A stretch of DNA of 33,979 bases from a virus: the IMG/VR virus record IMGVR_UViG_3300025141_000390, positions 1 through 33,979 of that record. One strand, given 5' to 3'. The notes under the pieces were generated by a model that was not told the origin of the DNA, did no database searches, and worked only from the letters and a program-made list of their open reading frames with translations. Below are positions 1,583 through 32,750 of the stretch, piece by piece. A program made the translations under genes and the position numbers. Each line of letters opens with the position of its first letter. Position 1 is the stretch's first letter.

Positions 1583-4549
1583 ATGGCAATAATATATACC
1601 TACCCACGGTTATTAAATCCAGACGGTACAGAATTAATTGTAGTTTCAGAGACTAAAAATCAGAATGCAACACGTCTTCTTACTGTAGGTGCTATAGTAG
1701 ATTTGTGGGATTGTACGCAGGCAGAAGAATGTGGTTTTTGTTCCAATACATTTAGAGATATAGAACCAGAATTTGGTTTATCTTTCGTAGCAAGCGGTTG
1801 TGATAGTCAAGTTGCATTTAGGTCTTCTGACGCGTCAGTGATTATAACTGGTGTTATTTTACCAGGTGTTGGTTCAACCGTAGATTTGACATGTGATACT
1901 TGCCCAGATGCTATAATGAGTATAGTTCCACCATTAGGTGATGAAGTGAAAGCAGATGGTTGCGACCAAGTTAATTTTACGTCTAGTGATGCCAGTGTAA
2001 CTATAACTGGTACTAATGCGACTAAAACTGTAGATTTTAAAGCAGTAGGTGGAGGCGGAGGCGGTTGTCCACCAACTTATCTTATTAGACCGATTGAATG
2101 TGATGATGAAACTTATGAATGTATTATAAGTGAGGAAATGGAATATTGGGTTTGGACTTGTGATCCAACTTTAGGAGCTTTAGCCCCTGGTTATTTAGAT
2201 ACTTTACAAATAAACGGAATAGATTATCCTCATCCTACGAGCTCCGAAGATGCGTGTTGGTATATAGAATTAGCCACCCTTACAGCAAATACAACAGATT
2301 GTGATACATGCTGCCCTGAACTAGAGTTGGTTTATAAACTAACTCCATGTCCGGATGGAGAATACACTACTATATATTACACAAACGATGCTAATTCAAG
2401 TGGTCCAGGTGGAACTAGTATATCTGATTACGATGGACAAGTTATCTTAGCTACAACTCCAGAGGGAGAAGTTTGCTATACAGTGTCTCAAGAAAATGGT
2501 CCTGTTATTCCTGTAACAATAGTTCAAGGTAATTATGATGATTGTTTATGTTGTGTATCTCTGAGATTAGTTCAGCAGTACAAGCAGTGTGAAAATCCCG
2601 GTAATCTATTTATGGTAGAATTAACACAACTACAACTCGATGATTTAATCGCAAACGGTGTAGCATCTGCCTACTATTATTTAAGAGTAGATCTCTCTCC
2701 ATTTGGTTTACCTGGATATGCATGTGTTGAATGGGATGGCCCCGCGTGTACGGATGCAAATACGGATCTGTGGGATACTAATCCAGCGGATTGCGATGAT
2801 CAAACATGGTGTCCAGCAGAAACTATCTTACTAACCCCGTGCGATGGTAATGAACAACCGTATACTACTGATATAGTAACAAATGAAGGTGAATCACCAA
2901 CATTAATCGGAGTTAATACTGATGATATTGTTTCACTAGACGCAAGTGCATTGGCATGTTATATAGTGACGCGTCCTGTATATCTACCATTAAGTGGTGG
3001 ACCAGTTACAGTTGTAGAAACATTTACAACAAATAATGAGTGTAACTGTTGTCTGTCTACTATAAGAAGATATGAAGAATGTAATAATCCAGGAAGTTAT
3101 GTATACTTTGATTTAGATAACGCGCCAGCGTGGTATTGGGATAAAAATTCTCCTCCACCTTGTTTAAAAGCGGAGTTTCCAACTCAAGAATACACGTGTT
3201 ATGAATTTGTAGATTGCGAGCAATCACATGACGTATTTACACCAGATAGTTTGGTTGAATGTGACCCCGATTGCGATGATGATCCTGCATGTGCTCCAGA
3301 CACTATAAGATATGAGCAATGTGTAGAAGCAGGAGATCCTCCAGGTAGTATGGCTCCATTTCTATATTTCGAGGATAATGGTAGTATGCCTACTTATATA
3401 GTAGTAACCCATCTAGTTCCACTTGGATCAAGTTGGTGTTATGTAGAAAATGATGATAGTGCTAATTTACCTGAAGATCCTAATTATGCTTGGGTTACTA
3501 AAGACCCTCAAAATTGTGAAACATGCGAAGTTTATGAATATTTTGATTGTGCCGATCCATCAACACCATTATATACTAATAATTCAGCAATAACTAATGC
3601 TGGTTTTCAATCTCCTATTACATGGTCTCATGATGGAGATCCTGGTGGTTGTTACGAAACAGTTGGTCCAGTATCTTTACCAATAGTAGATCTTATGCTT
3701 AACGAGATAGTTAATTTAATTGCATCCTATCCTGATTGTCCTTGTTGCACTGATCATGGCGGTTATGCGGGCGGTATGGGATTCAAGCATAGATATAATG
3801 TATGTAGTTATGAATATGGTCCCCCTGCAGGTGCTCCAGCTACTGTGGTAGTGGATTTAACAGCATGGCTAGGTACACATCCAAATGTTATAACTGTTAC
3901 TATAAATGGTATAGATATATGCTATGAATGGGATCAGCAAGTTTGTGAGGCTGCAACACATAATTTTGTTGACTCTTACGATGAGTGTTGGATTTGTTGG
4001 GAAGCAGAGGGAGAACCTTATGTTGTAGAGGTTGAAGAGTGTATTTCTGGAAATAAATGGTATGTTCCGTCTTCATGCTTTGATCCATCTTTATATGACT
4101 CAGGAATAGTGAATGGTGATGTTATAGAAGTAACATCAGGTCAATTAGTTAATCAAAATCCTTCTGGATGTTTTGAAATAATAGATATGAATTCTGCTTC
4201 TACAACTACTTTAGCGTGTCCACCAGATAATATATGGAATGGTCCTATAGGAGATAATCCTGGAGAAGAATTAGATAATTGTGATTGTTGTGAATTAAAA
4301 CTTTACACTTATGCAAAATGCGGTACAGGTTGTGATGCGAGTGTAGCAGTTGATGTAACTGTTGATTTAGGTTGGGGTCCAGGTGGAGCTAGTTTATGGC
4401 CGGTTGTACCACCAGTTATACGAGCAACTGATCTTGCAAGTGGATTTGATTGTTGCTTTGACTCACCAGAACCGGCTGAATGTCAACCACCAACTGGAAC
4501 ATATGTCGCAACAGTGGATGATTGTGCTAGTGGTCCATGCTATCCATAA
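1583..4549 (+). CDS. 988-aa cysteine-rich repeat protein, putative virion fibre/adhesin
   Basis: About 65 cysteines by my count in 988 residues, with very few basic residues and many D, E, T, Y and P. Residues 1-42 (MAIIYTYPRLLNPDGTELIV and following) resemble openings I recall in phage fibre-type proteins. Residues 45-155 hold two beta-like units, then a Gly6 linker (156-161). The rest is a chain of roughly 75-98-residue modules with boundaries at CxCC or CxxC clusters near 240, 321, 404, 487, 564, 645, 719, 802 and 900. Two module flavours roughly alternate: one opens with LTPC-like segments, the other has YxxC with a later CY/CVEW segment. There is no signal peptide. The gene lies between small late proteins and groEL. 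A receptor-binding fibre or capsid appendage is the best guess. How so many cysteines are handled in a reducing cytoplasm is unknown. Confidence 0.75.
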   Translation: MAIIYTYPRLLNPDGTELIVVSETKNQNATRLLTVGAIVDLWDCTQAEECGFCSNTFRDIEPEFGLSFVASGCDSQVAFRSSDASVIITGVILPGVGSTVDLTCDTCPDAIMSIVPPLGDEVKADGCDQVNFTSSDASVTITGTNATKTVDFKAVGGGGGGCPPTYLIRPIECDDETYECIISEEMEYWVWTCDPTLGALAPGYLDTLQINGIDYPHPTSSEDACWYIELATLTANTTDCDTCCPELELVYKLTPCPDGEYTTIYYTNDANSSGPGGTSISDYDGQVILATTPEGEVCYTVSQENGPVIPVTIVQGNYDDCLCCVSLRLVQQYKQCENPGNLFMVELTQLQLDDLIANGVASAYYYLRVDLSPFGLPGYACVEWDGPACTDANTDLWDTNPADCDDQTWCPAETILLTPCDGNEQPYTTDIVTNEGESPTLIGVNTDDIVSLDASALACYIVTRPVYLPLSGGPVTVVETFTTNNECNCCLSTIRRYEECNNPGSYVYFDLDNAPAWYWDKNSPPPCLKAEFPTQEYTCYEFVDCEQSHDVFTPDSLVECDPDCDDDPACAPDTIRYEQCVEAGDPPGSMAPFLYFEDNGSMPTYIVVTHLVPLGSSWCYVENDDSANLPEDPNYAWVTKDPQNCETCEVYEYFDCADPSTPLYTNNSAITNAGFQSPITWSHDGDPGGCYETVGPVSLPIVDLMLNEIVNLIASYPDCPCCTDHGGYAGGMGFKHRYNVCSYEYGPPAGAPATVVVDLTAWLGTHPNVITVTINGIDICYEWDQQVCEAATHNFVDSYDECWICWEAEGEPYVVEVEECISGNKWYVPSSCFDPSLYDSGIVNGDVIEVTSGQLVNQNPSGCFEIIDMNSASTTTLACPPDNIWNGPIGDNPGEELDNCDCCELKLYTYAKCGTGCDASVAVDVTVDLGWGPGGASLWPVVPPVIRATDLASGFDCCFDSPEPAECQPPTGTYVATVDDCASGPCYP

Positions 4550-4591: not shown

Positions 4592-6151
4592 ATGGCAAAT
4601 GAGACAATTGTCAAACATCTTAACTTTGGTATTGATGCTAGAGACAAAGTGTTTGAAGGAATAGAAAAACTCACTAAAGCTGTTAGCTCCACATTAGGAG
4701 CTGGCGGCAAGTGCGTTATCCTAGAAGATAGTAATGGTAATCCTCAGATAACAAAAGATGGAGTAACAGTGGCAGATTCTATAATATTATTAGATCCAGT
4801 GGAGAATATGGGTTCTAAATTATTGAAAGAAGCGGCTAGGAAAACTGTTAAAGAAGCAGGTGATGGAACCACTACAGCAACAGTTTTAGCTTATGCTATA
4901 TTATGTGAAGCTTATAAGGTTATAGAGAATGAAACACCTAGGAATCTTAAAGAAGGTATAAACACCGCAGTAGACAAGGTTGTAAAATATTTAGAAAAAA
5001 ATTCAGAAAAAGTTAAAGGTAAAAAGATTGAGCAAGTTGCTACTATCTCCTCTAATAATGATATTGAATTAGGGATGATAATAGGTAGTGCTTTTAAGAA
5101 AGTTGATGAAACTGGCTTAGTATTAATGGAAACTCACGATGAACCTACTACCACTGTTGAAAGTATAGAAGGAGTTCAATATGAACGCGGTTTAAAAAAT
5201 GAGCATTTTATTACCAATAAGAATAAAGGTACAGCGGAATTAAATAAACCATTAGTTCTAATAGTAGAAACCCCTATAGAAAATATTAGGAAAATACAAA
5301 GCGTATTAGAACATGTTATAAAAACTAAAAGGGCTTTATTAATTATAGGGGATACAGAAACTCAGGTTGTTAATGCTTTAGCCATGAATAAGGTTAATGG
5401 TAATATAAAAATAAATGTTATTGATGCACCTATCTATGGCGTAAGCAAGAGAGATACATTAGATGATTTGGCATTATTAACTGGTGCTACTTTAATAAAC
5501 GAAGATCTAGGTGATGACATGGATATGATCAGTGTTGAACACTTAGGTGAATGTGAAAAGAGTATTACAACTAGACAGGATACAATTCTACAAGTAGATA
5601 GCTTTAATGAAGAAGTAGAGTTATTAATAAAATCAATTAAAGAGAGAATTAAAAAAGCAGGTCATAAAGCAATTGTAAAGAATTTAGAAAAAAGATTAGC
5701 ACGATTATGTGCGAAGGTTGCAGTTGTCAAAGTAGGTGCTAATTCTGAAGTAGAATTAAAAGAAAAAAGAGATAGAGTCGAAGATGCTATTTGTGCTACA
5801 AAAGCCGCGGTAAAAGAAGGTATAGTACCTGGAGGAGGTATAGCATTACTAAATGCTTCCTCAACTATTAAAGCAGAGTCTGTGGGAGAAGAAGTTTTAT
5901 TAGAGGCAATTAAAGCCCCATATGAAATTATATTAGATAATGCTGGCATAGATGATTACGAACCACCAACGATAAAAGGTAGAGGACTAGATGTGGTTAC
6001 AGGCAAAACAGTAAGTATGGTAAAGTCCGGAATAATAGATCCACTACTTGTTACGAAAAGTGCGTTACGAAACGCGGCTTCAGTAGCCACTACGATTTTG
6101 TCGACTGATTGTGTAATTAATAATTTAAGGGCACATGAGGGCAATAGGTAA
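4592..6151 (+). CDS. groEL: GroEL-type chaperonin, phage-encoded
   Basis: This is a full-length group I chaperonin of 519 residues. ATP-site signatures are intact: ITKDGVTVAD (53-62, with D56), GDGTTTATVLA (90-100, with D91), and RVEDAICATKAAVKEGIVPG (395-414, with D398), followed by GGGIALL. The apical domain (about 190-375) is more divergent: where E. coli has a Tyr/Leu-rich substrate groove, this protein has ERGLKNEHF and NIRKIQSVLEHV. The C-terminus ends LRAHEGNR and lacks the Gly-Gly-Met tail of bacterial GroEL. The 3' end overlaps groES by 17 nt. Expected to form a folding chamber for phage proteins; the adjacent cysteine-rich protein and the capsid protein are natural client candidates (inference). 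Confidence 0.96.
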   Translation: MANETIVKHLNFGIDARDKVFEGIEKLTKAVSSTLGAGGKCVILEDSNGNPQITKDGVTVADSIILLDPVENMGSKLLKEAARKTVKEAGDGTTTATVLAYAILCEAYKVIENETPRNLKEGINTAVDKVVKYLEKNSEKVKGKKIEQVATISSNNDIELGMIIGSAFKKVDETGLVLMETHDEPTTTVESIEGVQYERGLKNEHFITNKNKGTAELNKPLVLIVETPIENIRKIQSVLEHVIKTKRALLIIGDTETQVVNALAMNKVNGNIKINVIDAPIYGVSKRDTLDDLALLTGATLINEDLGDDMDMISVEHLGECEKSITTRQDTILQVDSFNEEVELLIKSIKERIKKAGHKAIVKNLEKRLARLCAKVAVVKVGANSEVELKEKRDRVEDAICATKAAVKEGIVPGGGIALLNASSTIKAESVGEEVLLEAIKAPYEIILDNAGIDDYEPPTIKGRGLDVVTGKTVSMVKSGIIDPLLVTKSALRNAASVATTILSTDCVINNLRAHEGNR

Positions 6152-6395
6152 ACATATAGTTCTAAAGGAAGTAAAAGAGAACAGTGTCACAACTAAAGGA
6201 GGTTTAGTACTAGGAGAAAAACACCGCGAAGATATTAGATATAGACAAGGTGTAGTAGAATTGGTTGGCGAAGGTATTATGGTTATAAAACCAGGTGATG
6301 AGATATATTTTGATCGGCACGCTGGATGTGACTTAGAAGTTAAAAATAATATATATAAAGTTATTAAAGAACAAGATGTAGTAATAGTCTTATAA
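6135..6395 (+). CDS. groES: GroES-type co-chaperonin
   Basis: The 86-residue product is slightly shorter than E. coli GroES. It opens MRAIGKHIVLKEV and has a mobile-loop equivalent at about 15-29 with GGLVL (22-26), matching GGIVL of GroES, the segment that docks on GroEL. The barrel continues with RQGVVELVGEG and VIKPGDEIYFDRHAG and closes with IKEQDVVIVL. The start lies inside the end of groEL, so translation is coupled. A matching chaperonin and co-chaperonin on a phage genome is uncommon; phage T4 gp31 replaces only GroES and phage EL carries only a GroEL. Confidence 0.93.
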   Translation: MRAIGKHIVLKEVKENSVTTKGGLVLGEKHREDIRYRQGVVELVGEGIMVIKPGDEIYFDRHAGCDLEVKNNIYKVIKEQDVVIVL

Positions 6396-11949: not shown

Positions 11950-12093
11950 ATGGCAATTTTAAGTCTTAAAAATACTATACCAGCCATAAGTCCTAGGGGT
12001 GGAGTACCAGGACCTGTTGTGGGTGGATATATACTTGTAGAAGGTACTGGATTTATCTTAATGGAAGATGGTTCAAAAATAAAATTAGAATAA
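11950..12093 (+). CDS. 47-aa Gly/Ile-rich small protein, possible virion component
   Basis: The ATG begins immediately after the TAA of the previous gene, and its own TAA shares one base with the ATG of the next gene (12093), so the three are tightly coupled. The product begins MAILSLKNTIPAISPRGGVP and ends with a beta-like segment YILVEGTGFILMEDGSKIKL. The coupling between two beta-rich virion-like genes suggests a small accessory to the same appendage. Confidence 0.65.
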   Translation: MAILSLKNTIPAISPRGGVPGPVVGGYILVEGTGFILMEDGSKIKLE

Positions 12094-13145
12094 TGGCAGA
12101 TAAGAAAATTAGTGCGTTTAGCACAATAACAACTATACCAGGAGGTCCTATAACCGTAAGCGATGTATTAGGAATTGCAGGATACTGCGATGATCCCGCA
12201 GCACCAGGTACTGATGTAAATGTTAGTTTTTCCGGCGCAGAGATTGTAGCAGCTGGATTACAAGACTTAGATTCGGTATTAACAGCTGGTAATGCTGCTA
12301 ATAATGATATTGAACTAAATGATGGTGGTGCAAATATAACTTTTTATAAAAGAAATGAATTAGATATACAAAATCAACAACCTTATGAAATTAAAGTTAG
12401 AGGTTCATATTATGTAAATAGTACAGCTACAGCTGTCACGGGAAGTGTTATACACTTATCTTCATATAATGGCGGTCATAATGGTCATATAACTATAAAT
12501 TCACGATCAACTACAAATGGTACATTACAATTAATAACTGCAACAGAGTTACAAATAAATTTACCCGTGGCACCAACTGGAGCAGGAGATGTATTATCCG
12601 CTAAAAACGTTAGTGGAGATGTGGAATGGGTTACTCCTCCACCTCAATCGCATCAAATTAATGGGTTGGCAGTAAATGTAGGAAGTTATGTAACTGGATC
12701 AACAAATCCAAGACAAGTTATGTTTGCTTGTAGCATGGCAAGTGCATTAATGAATCAAGGGCCATGTATGATAGTTAATAATGATTTTACTGTAACAAGG
12801 GTACAAATTAAATGGATTGGTAGAAGCGTTCCAGTAATCCCAGCTGACGCTTTAGGTCAGACAGCAGACGTTAATTGGGAATTAGGGAAATTAACAGATC
12901 CATTTGATTCAAGTGACACAAATAGAGCGTCTCTCAATTATACATCAGTATTAGCACTACCTAATTTACAATGCACTGAAGCTGTAGATACTGGAACTTT
13001 TATATATAAAGATAGTGGACCAATTTCTGCTTCATATACAGATGGGGATATACTTGTCCTTTACTATTCAGCTCCAACTGATTCAACAATGCCCTGGACA
13101 TTTCCTACGACATCTATGACAGTTGCTATGACTATAGAATACTAA
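12093..13145 (+). CDS. 350-aa fibre-like virion protein
   Basis: The N-terminal 45 residues (MADKKISAFSTITTIPGGPI and ISDVLG-type text) resemble the virion-binding openings of phage fibre proteins. A beta-rich middle follows, with INSRSTTNGTLQL and an LPVAPTGAGDVLSAKNVSGD segment near residue 165-185 that I recall as a frequent linker in flavophage fibres. The C-terminal ~170 residues form a separate domain ending MTVAMTIEY. No signal peptide. Likely a receptor-binding or head-fibre protein made with the two small genes upstream. Confidence 0.7.
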   Translation: MADKKISAFSTITTIPGGPITVSDVLGIAGYCDDPAAPGTDVNVSFSGAEIVAAGLQDLDSVLTAGNAANNDIELNDGGANITFYKRNELDIQNQQPYEIKVRGSYYVNSTATAVTGSVIHLSSYNGGHNGHITINSRSTTNGTLQLITATELQINLPVAPTGAGDVLSAKNVSGDVEWVTPPPQSHQINGLAVNVGSYVTGSTNPRQVMFACSMASALMNQGPCMIVNNDFTVTRVQIKWIGRSVPVIPADALGQTADVNWELGKLTDPFDSSDTNRASLNYTSVLALPNLQCTEAVDTGTFIYKDSGPISASYTDGDILVLYYSAPTDSTMPWTFPTTSMTVAMTIEY

Positions 13146-25176: not shown

Positions 25177-28100
25177 ATGGCAGAAATGAAAAACACCTTC
25201 ATTCAGTCTAAAATGAATCAAGACTTGGATGGTAGAATTCTCCCTAATGGTCAATATCGTGAAGGAATTAATATTCAGATAAGTAAATCTGAAGGAATGG
25301 ATGTTGGGGCATTAGAGAATATCTTAGGTAATATAGAAATTGAAGATTTTGGTATTAATGATACTCATACGGAAATCATAGGACATTTTATAGATGAATC
25401 TAATGATCGTTTATTTTTATTTTTAACTAATTATACAGATACTTCCTCTAATAATTTAGATAATAATGCAGCTGGTTTTGGTGTACCCATTTTGCTAGGA
25501 GCTACTACTACAATTCAAAATTATATAATCTCATATAATACAAAAGAAGATACGTATACGATATTAGTAAAAGGTAGTTTTCTTAATTTTTCAAAAACTC
25601 ATATAATAACAGGTATTAATCTAGTAGAAAATTTATTATTTTGGACTGATAATAGAAATCAACCTAGAAAAATTAATGTAGCATTAGGAGAAACTGCAAA
25701 TTATTATACGAGTGAAGATCAAATTTCCGTTGCAAAATATTATCCTTTTGATCCTATACTGTTACTCAATGAAAATACTAGTCCTCATATAGTTTTTGAT
25801 AGTAGCATGCAAGATAGGATTAGTGAATATTTACCTATTCATGCTTCAGCTGTAATGATTGAGGGTGGTGTAGGATCACTTACATTAAAAGGAGAATATT
25901 ATAATATCAAACCTAATTCAAATGCAGTTCTTAATGGAGATCTAATTACGGGAAAATACGTTACGTGGCCTCCCGTCCAAGTAGACAGTGTAGCATGGCC
26001 TAATCCTGGTGAAACAGAAATCACTTTATCTGGACCCAATGTGGCAGGTACTATAAATGATCTTGGAGGCACCGACTCGGCAATATATTTCCAACGCCAA
26101 AATCCACATTTTGATGAAGCTTGGCCAGGTGATCCTAAATTTTTAAAAGATAAATTTGTTAGATTTAGTTACAGATTTAAGTTTGATGATGGAGAATACT
26201 CACTAATGGCACCATTCACTCAAATAGCATTTGTACCAGAGCAAGATGGATATTTTATTGGTGATAATGCTGAAGATAATTTACCGTTAGTAGGACAAGA
26301 GAGTGAAACATATGATAGCACTGTTCTTAAGTTTATGGAGAACAAAGTTAATGATGTAACATTAAATATACCTTCTCCTAGATATGGTGAAACACAAAGT
26401 AATTGGGATACAGTAAATAATAAGTTACACGTAATTGAAATTGATATTTTATATAGAGAAAGTGATTCTAATCAAGTTTTAGTATTAGATACTTTAATAT
26501 TAGAAGATTTTAACAATTTACTTGATATTTATTTACCTTATAATTATCAAAGTAGAAAACCATGGAAAACATTACCCCCTAAAGAAACAACAAGAGTAAG
26601 TGATGAAGTACCCATTCGAGCTTTAGCACAAGAAGTAGCGGGTAACAGAATTATATATGGAAATTTTATAGACAAACATACTTCTCCAGAAACTTTAGAT
26701 TATACTTTACAAATTGATGCTAAACCTGAACTTCCTTTAATGGGTGGTGGAGGATGGAAAGATCCAGATTATTATGTTAGAAAAGAATATCAAAATCATA
26801 CTCTAAAACAAAACAGAACTTATCAAGTTGGAGTTGTATTGTCAGATAGATATGGTAGACAATCTGATGTTATTCTATCTAATATTAGAGTGGACAATGA
26901 AGATCCTACAGCAAAAGGATCAACTATATATCATTCTTATAAAAATATAGAAGACATCCTTATAACTGACAAGAATCATATTGTAGATCCTAATGATACT
27001 TGGCCAGGTGATCAGTTAAGAGCAACATTTCAAAATATTATACCAGAGCAAAAACTTAATAATGGTTATCCTGGTGTTTACCAACACGATGATGGATCAA
27101 TAATGGAGGTATCAGGGCTTTGGAACATGGGAGTGGGTAATTTTTGGTGTCATGCCACTATACCACCTTGCGATCCGTGTGGGCCACTTCCGGCCGCGCC
27201 TTGTACTGTAACTGGTTCTATATTTAAATACGATTATACATCCGGAACTTATATAGATAGTGGAGGAACTTGGAGTGCCAATGTACATCCACCTGATCAA
27301 ACATTAGTAGATCTAGTGGTAACAGGTATTGGTTTCGTATCAGGTCAACCTATACAACTTCGTATACTTAATCCTTCTTTAAGTTGTCCAGAATGTGATT
27401 TTAATCCACTTTCACCTCCTCAATATGGTGGTTATGCTGTAATAAAACCTACTAATCCATTAGGTTGGTATTCATGGAAGATGGTTGTTAAGCAAACTGA
27501 GCAAGAGTATTATAATGTTTATTTACCAGGTGCAATGGCTGGTTATCCATGTGATCAAGAAGGAAGAGAGGAAGTATCTGTAGAAGATCCAGCTGATACA
27601 ATTACTGTAACTCCATCTTTACCTGTGCTTGATTATCCAGATGGTAATCATAATAGAACATCTCACATAGTTTTATTTGGTGATAATATTAATAAAATAC
27701 CTCGTGATTTAAAAGAAGTTGGACCAACTCAAGATAAATTTGCTAGTTCAGTGCGAATGTATGGTAGAGTTCAGAACATAATAGATAGACCTAGTTGGCC
27801 TGACGGAGCTGGAGGTGCATTTGAAAGTTATTCTAATGTTCAATATGATCCAGGGAAAAAATGGGATATAGCAGTTACTGTAGCTACCATGAAAGAACTT
27901 AATCTAGGTGTTTTAACCCCCGCTGAATCACCAACATTACCACATCAATTTTATAAATCCCAAACAAACCCATTAATAGCTAAAGTAGATACTAGAGATC
28001 AATTTGGTGTTTCTCATGAAGGATTAAATCCTTGTAGTGATACATATAGTGTTTTTGATGATATAGAAAATACATGGTTTGGAAGTGGTCCCACATTAGC

Positions 28101-30267
28101 CGTATATGAAACTGCTCCAGTAGAATCACTTTTAGATATATTCTGGGAAACTAGTACCAGTGGTTTAGTATCGGAATTAAATTACAATATAATAAATAAT
28201 GATAATACACTTCCTATAGGTATTAGTAACCCTGAACTTAATTGGAGTGAATCAGATGATTATGGTACTATTATATCTGGGGATTTTCAAGCATTAGGAC
28301 CTAATTTTACACCATTAGGAATAGGTTGTACAATTGATTTAGTAGAAGTTACTACAACAGTGCAAGCTGGACCTTGGCCACCAATAACAGTTCCTCACAC
28401 ACCACAATTTGAATTAGAACCAGCGGGTGGACCTGGAGAGTATAGAGTAAAAATAGCTCCGCATAGCATACATAATCCTGGTTTTCATTGTTGGCGGAAT
28501 CCAACTATGAATGAGTATACATTTAAATTTATAATAACTAGATTATTGGATGGAACACAAACTACAATATATGAAACTGGCACATGCCATAATAGAGCGC
28601 CTAATGAGAGGAATGTGTGGCCTGGAAAACAAGAGATAAAAGACTGGACATGCGATCCTAATTTTGGTTATTATAATGGTGAGGTAGATGCTTGGTCGAC
28701 AAAGACTATTGCTATAGGACAACGTATGAATTTAACTTCAACGTATGGTTGTTATAAAATGGGTTTAAATGCAGCAGAATTTAGTGGAACTCTTTTTTAT
28801 GCAAATGAAGGTCCTGAATCTGGTCATGCTAACGTTCAACCAGCATATGGACGAATTATAGCTGACGGAAGTGTAGGTGGATCAGTGCCAACGGAGAAGC
28901 AGTGGATTCCTACTAGTTCATGGCAGTTTGAGCAAGTATCATCAGGGACTGGCCTTTATTATAAGACGTATGGTACAGGATATTACGCACCTAACGCTTC
29001 CTTAGCAACCGATACTGGTTCGATGTATTCTTATGGAGCTTATTTTAACTGGAAAGCAGCAATAGATGGTTCTGGATATGGTGCAACTACTGAAACTTAT
29101 CCAAGAACAGGAGGATTAATGTCATGTGGGCAATATCCTTTAAATTTACAATTAATGAGTACAAGTTCATGTTATAGTGGTACATCTGTTGGTGCTCAGC
29201 AATCATACTACCATGATTGGGATGGAGTATTTGAAGCTACTAATGGAGTGTGGGGTAGTTTTCCTGGTACTGAACCTCAACCCAATGGAGATGGTGTAGG
29301 TAGAGAGCTTGTGTTTAGTATTCCACGTATGTATCAAGTTAGTATGTTTGTTCCATATGCTCCACGATGGGGGAATAATGGAAATACTGATATACAAGGA
29401 CAAGGTGGTGATATTATATGGATGGGACAAGGAGAAGTTGTGTTTGGTTTATACCAAGATGTACATGACGCTAATCCAGATCCTGATTCTTTAATAGGTA
29501 GATTACCTAGTGGTCCAGTATATTGGCATAATAATACATCACAATTAGATGTTATGCAAGGCGGTGAAAACATTGTAGGTTCAAAATATAATGAATATGA
29601 TGTTAATGGATTAGGAGTATATCCTCATCATTATTGGCCTGATTTAAATTCTATATTAAATAACGCAAATGGATTAGGTAATTTTGCGAATTTTAGAGGT
29701 GGTCCCAATATAGGTAATGCACCTAATATGATGAAATTACAAAATGGTGATAATACTTTTTATCAATTTAATGAAATGTGGGTGGATAATGTTCAAGAGG
29801 TAGAAACATTTGGTGGCACCTGGAATTATGGTGGTGCATGGGTACCTCAAAGATACCTTATTGATAATCCACCAACTCATCAACCTCTACAACCAAATGC
29901 TTCTGGAAATTTATTTTGGTTAGGTGGGATTGATCCTACTACTAAATTAGGAGATGTTAATTCCAATCAGAAGTTTTTCAAGAAAAGACTTAGTCCAACT
30001 CCGATTGATAATATTCAAAAAGCTGCTATTTACGCTGGTAACCCTGATAATCCCAATGGTTATTCAGGGTGGAGTTCTCCACTTGAATTAGGTAACGCTT
30101 TACCAGGCGGTAGATATGTAGTAACATTACGTGTTACAGATAGGTCAAATGCTCATGGAAGTTCTGGATTATATTTTGAATGGGATGTACCTATAACATT
30201 ACCATCTTGGAGTGTAAGACTTAACCCAATGTGGTGTTGTGACAATTGTACTATATATAATGGTTAG
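25177..30267 (+). CDS. 1696-aa tail hub / muzzle-like protein
   Basis: The opening (KMNQDLDGRILPNGQYREGI, then ISKSEGMDVGALENILGN) and LFWTDNRNQPRKINVAL near 165 are typical of the large tail-hub or muzzle proteins of crAss-like and marine podoviruses, which begin with propeller-like beta repeats. Residues up to about 645 follow this core. A Cys/Pro-rich insert with PPCDPCGPLPAAPC and CPECDF spans about 650-745. Conserved text resumes with WYSWKMVVKQTEQEYYNVYL and NKIPRDLKEVGPTQ. Residues from roughly 1040 to 1580 are Gly/Tyr/Trp/Asn-rich, without recognisable motifs, and probably surface-exposed. A late domain has GRYVVTLRVTDRS. The end is WCCDNCTIYNG. It begins four bases after the previous stop. 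Confidence 0.78.
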   Translation: MAEMKNTFIQSKMNQDLDGRILPNGQYREGINIQISKSEGMDVGALENILGNIEIEDFGINDTHTEIIGHFIDESNDRLFLFLTNYTDTSSNNLDNNAAGFGVPILLGATTTIQNYIISYNTKEDTYTILVKGSFLNFSKTHIITGINLVENLLFWTDNRNQPRKINVALGETANYYTSEDQISVAKYYPFDPILLLNENTSPHIVFDSSMQDRISEYLPIHASAVMIEGGVGSLTLKGEYYNIKPNSNAVLNGDLITGKYVTWPPVQVDSVAWPNPGETEITLSGPNVAGTINDLGGTDSAIYFQRQNPHFDEAWPGDPKFLKDKFVRFSYRFKFDDGEYSLMAPFTQIAFVPEQDGYFIGDNAEDNLPLVGQESETYDSTVLKFMENKVNDVTLNIPSPRYGETQSNWDTVNNKLHVIEIDILYRESDSNQVLVLDTLILEDFNNLLDIYLPYNYQSRKPWKTLPPKETTRVSDEVPIRALAQEVAGNRIIYGNFIDKHTSPETLDYTLQIDAKPELPLMGGGGWKDPDYYVRKEYQNHTLKQNRTYQVGVVLSDRYGRQSDVILSNIRVDNEDPTAKGSTIYHSYKNIEDILITDKNHIVDPNDTWPGDQLRATFQNIIPEQKLNNGYPGVYQHDDGSIMEVSGLWNMGVGNFWCHATIPPCDPCGPLPAAPCTVTGSIFKYDYTSGTYIDSGGTWSANVHPPDQTLVDLVVTGIGFVSGQPIQLRILNPSLSCPECDFNPLSPPQYGGYAVIKPTNPLGWYSWKMVVKQTEQEYYNVYLPGAMAGYPCDQEGREEVSVEDPADTITVTPSLPVLDYPDGNHNRTSHIVLFGDNINKIPRDLKEVGPTQDKFASSVRMYGRVQNIIDRPSWPDGAGGAFESYSNVQYDPGKKWDIAVTVATMKELNLGVLTPAESPTLPHQFYKSQTNPLIAKVDTRDQFGVSHEGLNPCSDTYSVFDDIENTWFGSGPTLAVYETAPVESLLDIFWETSTSGLVSELNYNIINNDNTLPIGISNPELNWSESDDYGTIISGDFQALGPNFTPLGIGCTIDLVEVTTTVQAGPWPPITVPHTPQFELEPAGGPGEYRVKIAPHSIHNPGFHCWRNPTMNEYTFKFIITRLLDGTQTTIYETGTCHNRAPNERNVWPGKQEIKDWTCDPNFGYYNGEVDAWSTKTIAIGQRMNLTSTYGCYKMGLNAAEFSGTLFYANEGPESGHANVQPAYGRIIADGSVGGSVPTEKQWIPTSSWQFEQVSSGTGLYYKTYGTGYYAPNASLATDTGSMYSYGAYFNWKAAIDGSGYGATTETYPRTGGLMSCGQYPLNLQLMSTSSCYSGTSVGAQQSYYHDWDGVFEATNGVWGSFPGTEPQPNGDGVGRELVFSIPRMYQVSMFVPYAPRWGNNGNTDIQGQGGDIIWMGQGEVVFGLYQDVHDANPDPDSLIGRLPSGPVYWHNNTSQLDVMQGGENIVGSKYNEYDVNGLGVYPHHYWPDLNSILNNANGLGNFANFRGGPNIGNAPNMMKLQNGDNTFYQFNEMWVDNVQEVETFGGTWNYGGAWVPQRYLIDNPPTHQPLQPNASGNLFWLGGIDPTTKLGDVNSNQKFFKKRLSPTPIDNIQKAAIYAGNPDNPNGYSGWSSPLELGNALPGGRYVVTLRVTDRSNAHGSSGLYFEWDVPITLPSWSVRLNPMWCCDNCTIYNG

Positions 30268-30301: not shown

Positions 30302-32329
30302 ATGCCTTACTCAATACCTATAAAATATTTTAACTCTTTTTGGATAAAGAAGGTTGTCGGAGATACAGCGCAAGATCAACCAGATCCAGCTCTTAACGAT
30401 TATCAAAGTACAGTTACAACATCTGTTAGTGGATATGCTCCAGGACATGATCCCTATGGCGATGCTGATAGTCACTATCTATTACCTACATGGCCAGGTT
30501 TACCATGGGGTCATGAAATAGAAACAATAGCAGATAGTGGTGATGTTAAAGGATACCCTTGTTTTCCTTGGGGTGGAAGAGATTGGAATTCATATAGTGG
30601 AACAGGTAATTTACCTGATTGCGGAACTTTTGGTGTTGGTGGTGGTAGTTTAACTAATACTAATCCGTCGCCGGAAGAAGGACGAGAAAGAAATTGGTTT
30701 ATTGAAGAAGCTAGAATAAGAGGGGGATATAATAATACAAGTGTTGACTTTGGAGTTAAAGCGTATGTTGTAGAGGAATTTCCTGAACAACAAGATAAGT
30801 TTAATTCTATGACATATTCTGGTATTTATAATTCTAGAACAGGTATAAATCAAACTAATGTATTTTCCACTGCTGAAGATATAACTAAAAGTGTTGATCC
30901 AGCTTATGGTTCTATACAAAAATTATATGCTAAAGATACTAATTTAATAATATTCCAAGAAAATAAAGTAAGTAGAGCATTAATAGATAAAGATGCTGTT
31001 TATACAGCAGAAGGTTCACCTATGCAAACGCAATCTAATGTTGTTATAGGTGCTGTACAAGCTTATGCTGGACAATATGGAATAAGTACTAATCCAGAGT
31101 CATTTGCAAAGTACGGTATAAGAGAGTATTTTGCTGATAAGAGTAGAGGTACTATAATGAGATTATCACATAATGGTCTCACTGAAGTATCTAGTTATGG
31201 TATGAAAGATTATTTTAGAGATACGTTATCATTAATTAAAGATGGTCAGTTACATTATTCAGCTACATATATACCATTTTTTGATCTTAACCCATGTCAA
31301 GGAGTTCAAACGTTTGAACTAGATCCAGGTGGATGTCCTTGTGATACTATAGAACCTGGTATGTTATTATCTATGAATGGGAATGTTTCAAATATATGGG
31401 TATCTAGGGTAGATTGCGATTTGATGCAGGTAACAATGAATACAGTTTTTTATGGTATAGATTTTGGAATAGTGGGTTGTCTGACAAGTGATTGGCCAGA
31501 TAGTATAGAATTCGTATCTTACAAAGGTGATACAATACTAGGCGCGTTTGATACTCATAATAAGAATTATACAGTATCATTACAATGGAATACTTTTTCT
31601 AATGGATCATGTGTTTGTGAAGATGTGGATGAGGAAATCATATGTGAACCTCCATATACAACACATTATAGTACCGTAGGTTATGATGAAGATATAAATG
31701 GATGGGTTAGTTTTTATACATATATGCCCACGGCTATGGACAGCTTAAAAAATGATTTTTATTCTGTTAATGGTTATACATTGTATCGTCATTATAACGA
31801 AAGTGCTGGTGGCGGAAGAGGAGAGTTTTACAATGTTATTAATCCTGCTTCTATAGAGTTTATTTTTAATGATCAACCATCATTGTCGAAAAATTTTCAA
31901 ACAATAAATTACGAAGGTAGTAGTGGTTGGTATGTAGAACGAATGAATAGTGATTTAACGGAACCAATTAAATATCCTTCACCAGAAAATTGGAGCATTG
32001 GTGATTGGTACGCTGTAGGTGATCAAACCTCACGTATAAATAGTTATGTAGAAGGTAGGTATATAGATTCATTGAGTGAACAAGTAATGTATAGTGGTTT
32101 TAATAGAAGAGAAAATAAATATGTAGCCACTATAATAAACAATACTGCATCTCCTTTCTCAGGTGAAGTACAATTTACTGAAACGTCATCTTGGCCGTAT
32201 GGCAATGTAATGAGTGGCATTAAAGGTTATTATGCTACTATAAAATTAACTACAGATCAGGATACACAATTAGGTTTTATGAAAGAATTATTTGCTGTAA
32301 CAACAACATATGCTCCATCATCATATTAA
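30302..32329 (+). CDS. 675-aa tail hub partner / fibre-attachment protein
   Basis: The first residues (MPYSIPIKYFNSFWIKKVVG) are a signature I recall for the second large tail-hub protein in marine Bacteroidota phages. A variable Pro/Gly/Asp segment (about 25-130) precedes the conserved core: WFIEEARIRGGYNNTSVDFG, FNSMTYSGIYNSRTGINQTN, and QKLYAKDTNLIIFQENKVSR. Next is a Cys-rich patch (QGVQTFELDPGGCPCDTIE, later NGSCVCEDVDEEIICEPP) at about 340-455, and a beta-rich C-terminus. Probably sits with the 1696-residue protein at the tail tip. The two proteins share Cys/Pro-rich inserts. Confidence 0.72.
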   Translation: MPYSIPIKYFNSFWIKKVVGDTAQDQPDPALNDYQSTVTTSVSGYAPGHDPYGDADSHYLLPTWPGLPWGHEIETIADSGDVKGYPCFPWGGRDWNSYSGTGNLPDCGTFGVGGGSLTNTNPSPEEGRERNWFIEEARIRGGYNNTSVDFGVKAYVVEEFPEQQDKFNSMTYSGIYNSRTGINQTNVFSTAEDITKSVDPAYGSIQKLYAKDTNLIIFQENKVSRALIDKDAVYTAEGSPMQTQSNVVIGAVQAYAGQYGISTNPESFAKYGIREYFADKSRGTIMRLSHNGLTEVSSYGMKDYFRDTLSLIKDGQLHYSATYIPFFDLNPCQGVQTFELDPGGCPCDTIEPGMLLSMNGNVSNIWVSRVDCDLMQVTMNTVFYGIDFGIVGCLTSDWPDSIEFVSYKGDTILGAFDTHNKNYTVSLQWNTFSNGSCVCEDVDEEIICEPPYTTHYSTVGYDEDINGWVSFYTYMPTAMDSLKNDFYSVNGYTLYRHYNESAGGGRGEFYNVINPASIEFIFNDQPSLSKNFQTINYEGSSGWYVERMNSDLTEPIKYPSPENWSIGDWYAVGDQTSRINSYVEGRYIDSLSEQVMYSGFNRRENKYVATIINNTASPFSGEVQFTETSSWPYGNVMSGIKGYYATIKLTTDQDTQLGFMKELFAVTTTYAPSSY

Positions 32330-32339: not shown

Positions 32340-32750
32340 ATGAAATTAAATATAAGAAGATTAAAAGAAGAAGATTGGGAACCACTAACTATATGGTGGA
32401 AACAATGGCCTAAATGGATGGCACCTTCAAGAGATGCATTACCTGATAATGGATTAGGTGGACTTATGGTTGAAAAGGATGGTAAACCAGTATTAGCTGG
32501 ATTTATATACACAACTAATTCTAAGGGAGTTTGGCTTGAATGGATTATATCTGATCCAGATTATAGAGATAATGACAGACAGGACGCATTAGAGCTGCTT
32601 ATAACAGCCGCTGAGAACGTTTGTAGAGATCAAGGATTTAAATACGTATTATTTATAGGTAAACACAATAACTTAATTAATACTTTTGAAAAATTAGGAT
32701 GGACTGTAGATCGTTCACCATCATATGAATTAATAAAAACAATAAATTAG
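32340..32750 (+). CDS. GNAT-family N-acetyltransferase
   Basis: The 136-residue product follows the GNAT plan. An N-terminal strand MKLNIRRLKEEDWEPLTIWW is followed by a central hairpin (MVEKDGKPVLAGFIYTTNSK) and WLEWIISDPDYR. An acyl-CoA-loop position (DPDYRDNDRQDALELLITAA) is degenerate compared with Q/RxxGxG/A. The last part is KYVLFIGKHNNLINTFEKLG, the typical C-terminal N..a...feklGF-type segment. GNAT enzymes transfer acetyl groups from acetyl-CoA to amines. The substrate is unknown; in a tail module, modification of a virion or host protein is possible. The weak CoA loop leaves open a structural role. Confidence 0.78.
   Translation: MKLNIRRLKEEDWEPLTIWWKQWPKWMAPSRDALPDNGLGGLMVEKDGKPVLAGFIYTTNSKGVWLEWIISDPDYRDNDRQDALELLITAAENVCRDQGFKYVLFIGKHNNLINTFEKLGWTVDRSPSYELIKTIN

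Follow-up and report, generated by a model that had tools for sequence, protein, structure and literature searches.

The tail fibre gp22 of phage phicrAss001 docks in the tail hub by its residues 1-26, its head fibres gp21 and gp29 likewise dock by short N-terminal segments (residues 1-38 and 1-58, respectively), and disulfides stabilise the tail barrel and the hubs (Nature 2023, PMC10172136). A Cys-rich phage tail fibre was not found described in the literature searched, nor were proteomics found that place any member of the protein family considered here in a virion. Phage fibres are normally poor in cysteine, as expected for proteins that have to fold in the reducing cytoplasm. The gene examined here (Table 1), the product of which is called P0001, has a very different composition. 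We think it likely that it encodes an exchangeable, disulfide-locked fibre or adhesin of a crAss-related phage, in which the location in the virion, the formation and timing of the disulfides, and the binding of a receptor are inferred; the architecture, the homology of the modules, the statistics of paired cysteines, the exchange at the locus and the recombination in relatives rest on the data presented here.

The phage and its cysteine-rich gene

The window, i.e., the whole stretch of DNA that was analysed, comprises 33,979 bases and is a virus fragment from IMG/VR. Its TerL stands at 62% to that of spring-water phage ctfjg026 / MW202828 and at 44% to those of the elemo phages, and also matches Cellulophaga phages; a P22-type portal and matches to the muzzle domains crAss_MUZ (5e-9) and crAss_MUZ_C (5e-7) are encoded as well. 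TerL, portal and muzzle together formed the criterion by which the phage was assigned and, judged by these genes, it is related to the crAss phages, in a Pervagoviridae/Elemovirus-like lineage; it is taken to be short-tailed, probably with a host among the Bacteroidota. The crAss-type muzzle is apparently split in the window, with its N- and C-terminal domains on separate genes (25177-30267 and 30302-32329). A GNAT-type acetyltransferase (32340-32750; Pfam above cut-off) lies between a muzzle part and a structural gene, and the 276-aa product of 32756-33586 matches a PHROG virion structural family and carries an S74-like C-terminal stretch (Pfam 20.5 bits vs. a cut-off of 22). A second fibre-like protein (12093-13145) has a different N terminus (MADKKISAFSTI...) and no family match.

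The gene for P0001 sits in a region with late and structural genes, and groEL follows directly downstream; in relatives of the phage groEL is next to or near the locus. A first-pass annotation, made from the sequence alone, described the product as a giant acidic protein with about 65 cysteines and without a signal peptide. The count is exact and the acidity is borne out (pI 4.05), “giant” being a mild overstatement for a protein of 107 kDa, and inspection by eye shows no signal peptide (MAIIYTYPRLLNPDGTELIVV). Cysteine makes up 6.6% of the residues, as against 0.83% on average in the other genes of the window (binomial P for at least 65 in 988, 2e-36). P0001 has no above-cut-off match in Pfam and none in PHROGs, the PDB sequences or INPHARED, and the profile searches recognised neither Peptidase_S74 nor a known receptor-binding domain. 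A short Pfam match to CBM64 (E 0.03) remained under the family cut-off and was dismissed.

Table 1. Positions in the window of the gene for P0001, its parts, and groEL and groES.
Feature	Position	Strand	Basis or remark
Cys-rich modular fibre-type protein (P0001)	1583..4549	+	988 aa, 65 Cys
N-terminal segment, residues 1-46 (MAIIYTYP...TRLLTVGAIVDL)	1583..1720	+	Profile of 35 distinct segments; common to Cys-poor fibres
Stalk, residues 47-161	1721..2065	+	Two ‘SSDASVxITG..TVD’ motif copies, then poly-Gly hinge
First block, residues 162-244, 8 Cys	2066..2314	+	Diverges from module profile; homologues have it too
A-B module pair, residues 245-324 and 325-410, 5+5 Cys	2315..2812	+	Module profile
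A-B module pair, residues 411-490 and 491-570, 5+7 Cys	2813..3292	+	Module profile
Single module, residues 571-648, 4 core Cys only	3293..3526	+	Module profile
A-B module pair, residues 649-722 and 723-805, 5+5 Cys	3527..3997	+	Module profile
C-terminal A-B module pair, residues 806-903 and 904-988, 7+7 Cys	3998..4546	+	Folded by AlphaFold2
groEL	4592..6151	+	Pfam Cpn60 8.5e-50, PHROG 8.9e-133
groES	6135..6395	+	Pfam Cpn10 6e-12

Modular architecture and predicted fold

The array of P0001 comprises ten blocks (residues 162-988), a divergent first block and nine modules (245-988). A single module profile, built from nine family members, covers residues 243-987 by tiling. A profile with P0001 left out of the training still gives 65 bits on P0001, with the best of 500 shuffles below 0, and one trained without both P0001 and its nearest relative (L110) runs end to end over residues 249-986 with 72.9 bits, the best of 500 shuffles reaching -3.3 bits. 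An above-threshold match to the module profile was not obtained for the first block, which is covered by the alignment of residues 93-347 to a homologous array (L111; 44% identity).

Clusters of the CxCC or CxxC type lie at residues 240, 321, 487, 645, 719, 802, and 900, and the apparent gaps are filled by a looser C-x4-5-C (404-410 and 564-570). The repetition that had been noted, with a spacing of 75-98 residues, therefore holds with a slightly corrected period of 74-98 residues and with the looser form at two positions. The rough alternation of two module flavours was also recovered: flavour A has a CxCC end, flavour B a C-x2-5-C end and one more Cys after its C-Y core, and the exception in P0001 is the module at 571-648, which has no CxCC end.

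AlphaFold2, run on the C-terminal pair (residues 804-988) with an alignment of 32 module pairs, predicts a module of approximately four main strands (pLDDT 80.9, pTM 0.66); on the full chain with nine homologues the prediction was poor (pLDDT 36.7). A repeated module fold is thus predicted, and the finding that would have refuted the initial idea, no repeated fold, did not materialise. Nor is any homologue a known enzyme, the other outcome that would have counted against it. A Foldseek search of the pair model against the PDB gave nothing credible (best E 1.0, probability 0.38).

Relatives and exchange at the locus

Single-protein scans of IMG/VR and INPHARED and an alignment scan of GTDB contigs revealed no relatives of P0001. 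They were reached only through TerL neighbours, followed by an alignment search: 36 TerL-related records yielded one Cys-rich homologue and two proteins alike only in the N-terminal segment, and the subsequent alignment search led to 27 loci. In the related records complete TerL genes are 75-85% identical. The N-terminal segment, approximately 45 residues long, opens a homologous gene in about 30 related IMG/VR phages. Nine or ten of these genes are homologous Cys-rich arrays (L110-L119 and the window), with intact relatives of 872-1207 aa and 6.8-8.4% Cys, while the remainder are Cys-poor fibres or spikes, several of which match PHROG tail fibre or tail spike families and one of which (L131) ends in Peptidase_S74, above cut-off. 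Between pairs of the Cys-rich family dN is lower than dS, which indicates purifying selection. The profile of 35 segments also finds gp36 and gp37 of elemoA (E 3e-8 and 5e-9), ctfjg026 (4e-5), and gp087 (2e-4; annotated as “tail protein”) and gp085 (0.03) of phi38:1. Homology of the segment to gp22 of phicrAss001 is not claimed; the pattern is similar by eye, but E is 2.2.

The segment-bearing gene lies in the groEL region, mostly immediately or one gene upstream of groEL, although its position is not strictly fixed, since in L100 and L101 such genes are several kilobases away. A GroEL tree implies at least seven switches between Cys-rich and Cys-poor versions. The window and L130 (Cys-poor; GroEL 88%) are fully supported sisters, as are L110 and the Cys-poor L122; the tree was made quickly, some of its forks are unresolved and its outgroup branch is too long, but both sister pairs hold firmly. 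These switches, including that between the window and its sister, show that the distal part is exchanged. An exchangeable fibre was taken to require a conserved N-terminal segment, unrelated distal parts and an equivalent locus, and all three are met. The segment is probably a virion anchor, although virion data are lacking, and the best reading of the locus is that of a virion fibre or adhesin locus with an exchangeable distal part, its place in the virion being inferred. The original suggestion of a fibre is to that extent supported, by a segment common to Cys-poor fibre and spike genes of the same region, one with Peptidase_S74; presence in the virion has not been shown directly.

Two adjacent segment-bearing fibre genes occur per phage in L095, L099, and L100, suggesting alternative or paired fibres. 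Proteins with the same segment in L120, L121, and L123 have an intermediate Cys content (2.1-2.7%) and a different repeat, ‘CAT...GGIK...C.A.VRVP’. In L116 (2800-5512) the Cys-rich fibre gene is split in three frames (197, 592, and 154 aa), for which decay, assembly error and frameshift were not distinguished.

That the repeats could recombine, as was surmised initially, is seen in relatives and not in P0001. The last two modules of L110 are tandemly duplicated (ca. 53% identity). A second Cys-rich gene without the N-terminal segment occurs between a spike gene and groEL in three records (L125:5251-6645, L126:3022-4416, and L127:4547-5473). Over this gene L125 and L127 are 97% identical, and L127 has an exact in-frame deletion of 468 bp, equal to two modules (10 Cys) and flanked by a 12-bp direct repeat. 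Within the gene for P0001 no DNA-level tandem repeats were found and no recent module duplication is visible, the modules being too diverged.

Disulfides or metal

Four Cys columns are invariant in 74 out of 74 modules. The 32 A-B pairs have nine invariant Cys columns, and a tenth Cys is found in all of them 6-10 residues past the Cys of the C-Y core of the B module. The Cys total is even in 31 out of 32 pairs (10, 12, 14 or 16 among the even ones), compared to 16 on average and 27 at maximum in column shuffles; of the distinct patterns of extra Cys, 11 out of 12 are even. These counts are drawn from related sequences. Extra cysteines co-occur pairwise (columns 53/111, 68/162, and 128/169), and cysteines are strongly kept between homologues: 85 of 86/87 at 48% identity, 65 of 65/67 at 68%, and 64 of 71/64 at 67%. 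The extra B-type Cys is coupled to the CC end of the preceding module (31/37 vs. 2/37), although the sequences here are not independent and flavour alone explains part of the coupling. In P0001 all units of the array are even (8, 10, 12, 4, 10, and 14 Cys; 58 in total), and seven Cys precede the array, six of them in the stalk. Consequently, one Cys of P0001 must be unpaired or interchain.

An even number per unit, paired gain and loss, and strong conservation were the features required of a disulfide-rich repeat, and they are present. Because the extra cysteines are gained and lost in twos, disulfides are favoured over four-Cys metal sites, although bond formation remains unproven. With five core Cys in A and five in B, one bond is expected across the A-B boundary, and the coupling suggests that such a bridge may join the CxCC module to the extra Cys of the next module. 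Thioredoxin or glutaredoxin genes were not found in 25 related records, many of which are fragments, from which we infer that oxidation is probably by the medium or the host after lysis. The lack of any known oxidation aid encoded by the phage itself counts against the disulfide reading. The earlier proposal had left open whether the protein is stabilised by metal or oxidised after lysis; the paired gain and loss leans to disulfide, while oxidation has not been shown directly.

A metal-stabilised fibre, with zinc (or iron) bound by the invariant Cys quartet in each module, so that folding in the reducing cytoplasm needs no disulfide, nevertheless deserves consideration, as it would account for this invariance, for the CxC/CxxC-like ends and for a cytoplasmic assembly without a signal peptide. 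We regard it as quite improbable, since fours rather than twos of extra Cys would then be anticipated and the A-B pairs are even almost without exception, the odd fifth core Cys of A modules has a counterpart in the module that follows, the spacing between the last two core Cys is variable, and His is scarce (0.8%). A metal or redox buffer acting in the cytoplasm, metallothionein-like or part of phage-host conflict, seems hardly credible: the very high Cys content, the acidity, the lack of a signal peptide and the absence of direct virion evidence are compatible with it, but the fixed beta-module architecture with variable sequence, the N-terminal segment common to fibre and spike genes, and the location among late and structural genes are not what it would lead one to expect.

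The same module chemistry could also serve a head fibre, i.e., a capsid-surface adhesin, instead of a tail fibre. In its favour, docking through a short N-terminal stretch is also seen in the head fibres gp21 (1-38) and gp29 (1-58) of phicrAss001 (PMC10172136), and a same-locus relative (L120) weakly matches a PHROG head fibre family. However, where same-locus proteins have a match at all, it is mostly to families of tail fibres or spikes, and the S74 domain is one that tail fibres typically carry; a head fibre is, therefore, considered unlikely, though it is kept in mind.

Proposed mode of action and implications

For the preferred reading, an exchangeable disulfide-locked fibre or adhesin, the following sequence of events can be envisaged. 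Through its first ca. 45 residues the protein would be attached to the virion, most likely at the tail fibre hub, with a head-fibre site not excluded. Beyond them would come the short stalk, with its poly-Gly hinge, and then ten small beta modules strung into a stiff chain. Two disulfides would close each module, a third would probably link A-B neighbours, from the last Cys of the CxCC end of A to the extra Cys of B, and optional extra Cys pairs may form further bridges. Synthesis and assembly would take place in the cytoplasm with the cysteines still reduced, and the bridges would form around or after lysis, resulting in a resistant rod whose variable loops may bind the host surface. Pairs of modules could be added, dropped or swapped, and fibres of another type could take the place of the entire distal part. 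Since close relatives carry ordinary fibre tips in place of the module chain, this chain is probably an exchangeable host-binding arm, as far as comparison of genes can tell; the binding of a receptor is inferred.

We put forward tentatively, as an idea with slightly less than even odds, that phages of this kind carry an appendage of a new class: a rod in which small beta modules, of a fold unmatched in the PDB, are laddered covalently. Each module would contain two bridges and each A-B pair one more that spans it; the rod would be assembled in the reduced state and locked when oxidised at lysis, and recombination would change the length and identity of the arm. A fibre class with dozens of conserved, pairwise-evolving cysteines would contrast with the normally Cys-poor fibres of phages and would mean that disulfide-locked rods are available to phages outside the cell. 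The defined family, the module fold and the natural recombinants provide a test bed for when and how virion disulfides form, and an adhesin exchange locus beside groEL is identified in a large lineage of uncultured phages.

Comparison with known systems

Two models in BFVD resemble the module pair, both of uncharacterised proteins: A0A516LFR9 (a 1279-residue model piece; Foldseek probability 1.00), with 18% identity and a TM-score of only 0.36, and A0A6J5LX60 of an uncultured Caudovirales phage (1252 aa; probability 0.89), with 12% identity and a TM-score of 0.29. The second Cys-rich gene of L125 and L126 (466 aa, 24 Cys) matches the module profile weakly (E ca. 0.006) and has a C-terminal domain whose homologue extends the L115 array at its C terminus (34% identity, E 2e-16); it differs in that the N-terminal anchor segment is absent and that it accompanies a Cys-poor spike. 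The virion of phicrAss001 is of a related type, as indicated by the muzzle-domain proteins of the window, and shares docking by a short N-terminal segment and disulfides in the tail assembly, whereas sequence homology to its fibres was not detectable and a Cys-rich module array is not reported for them in the part of the description available (PMC10172136). Further counterparts are the tail fibres and spikes of the same region (L130, L125-127, and L131; gp087 and gp085 of phi38:1; gp36 and gp37 of elemoA), which have the same or a homologous N-terminal segment and a long variable distal part and, in the IMG/VR relatives, lie beside or near groEL, but their distal part is Cys-poor and consists of ordinary fibre or spike domains, in one case with Peptidase_S74.
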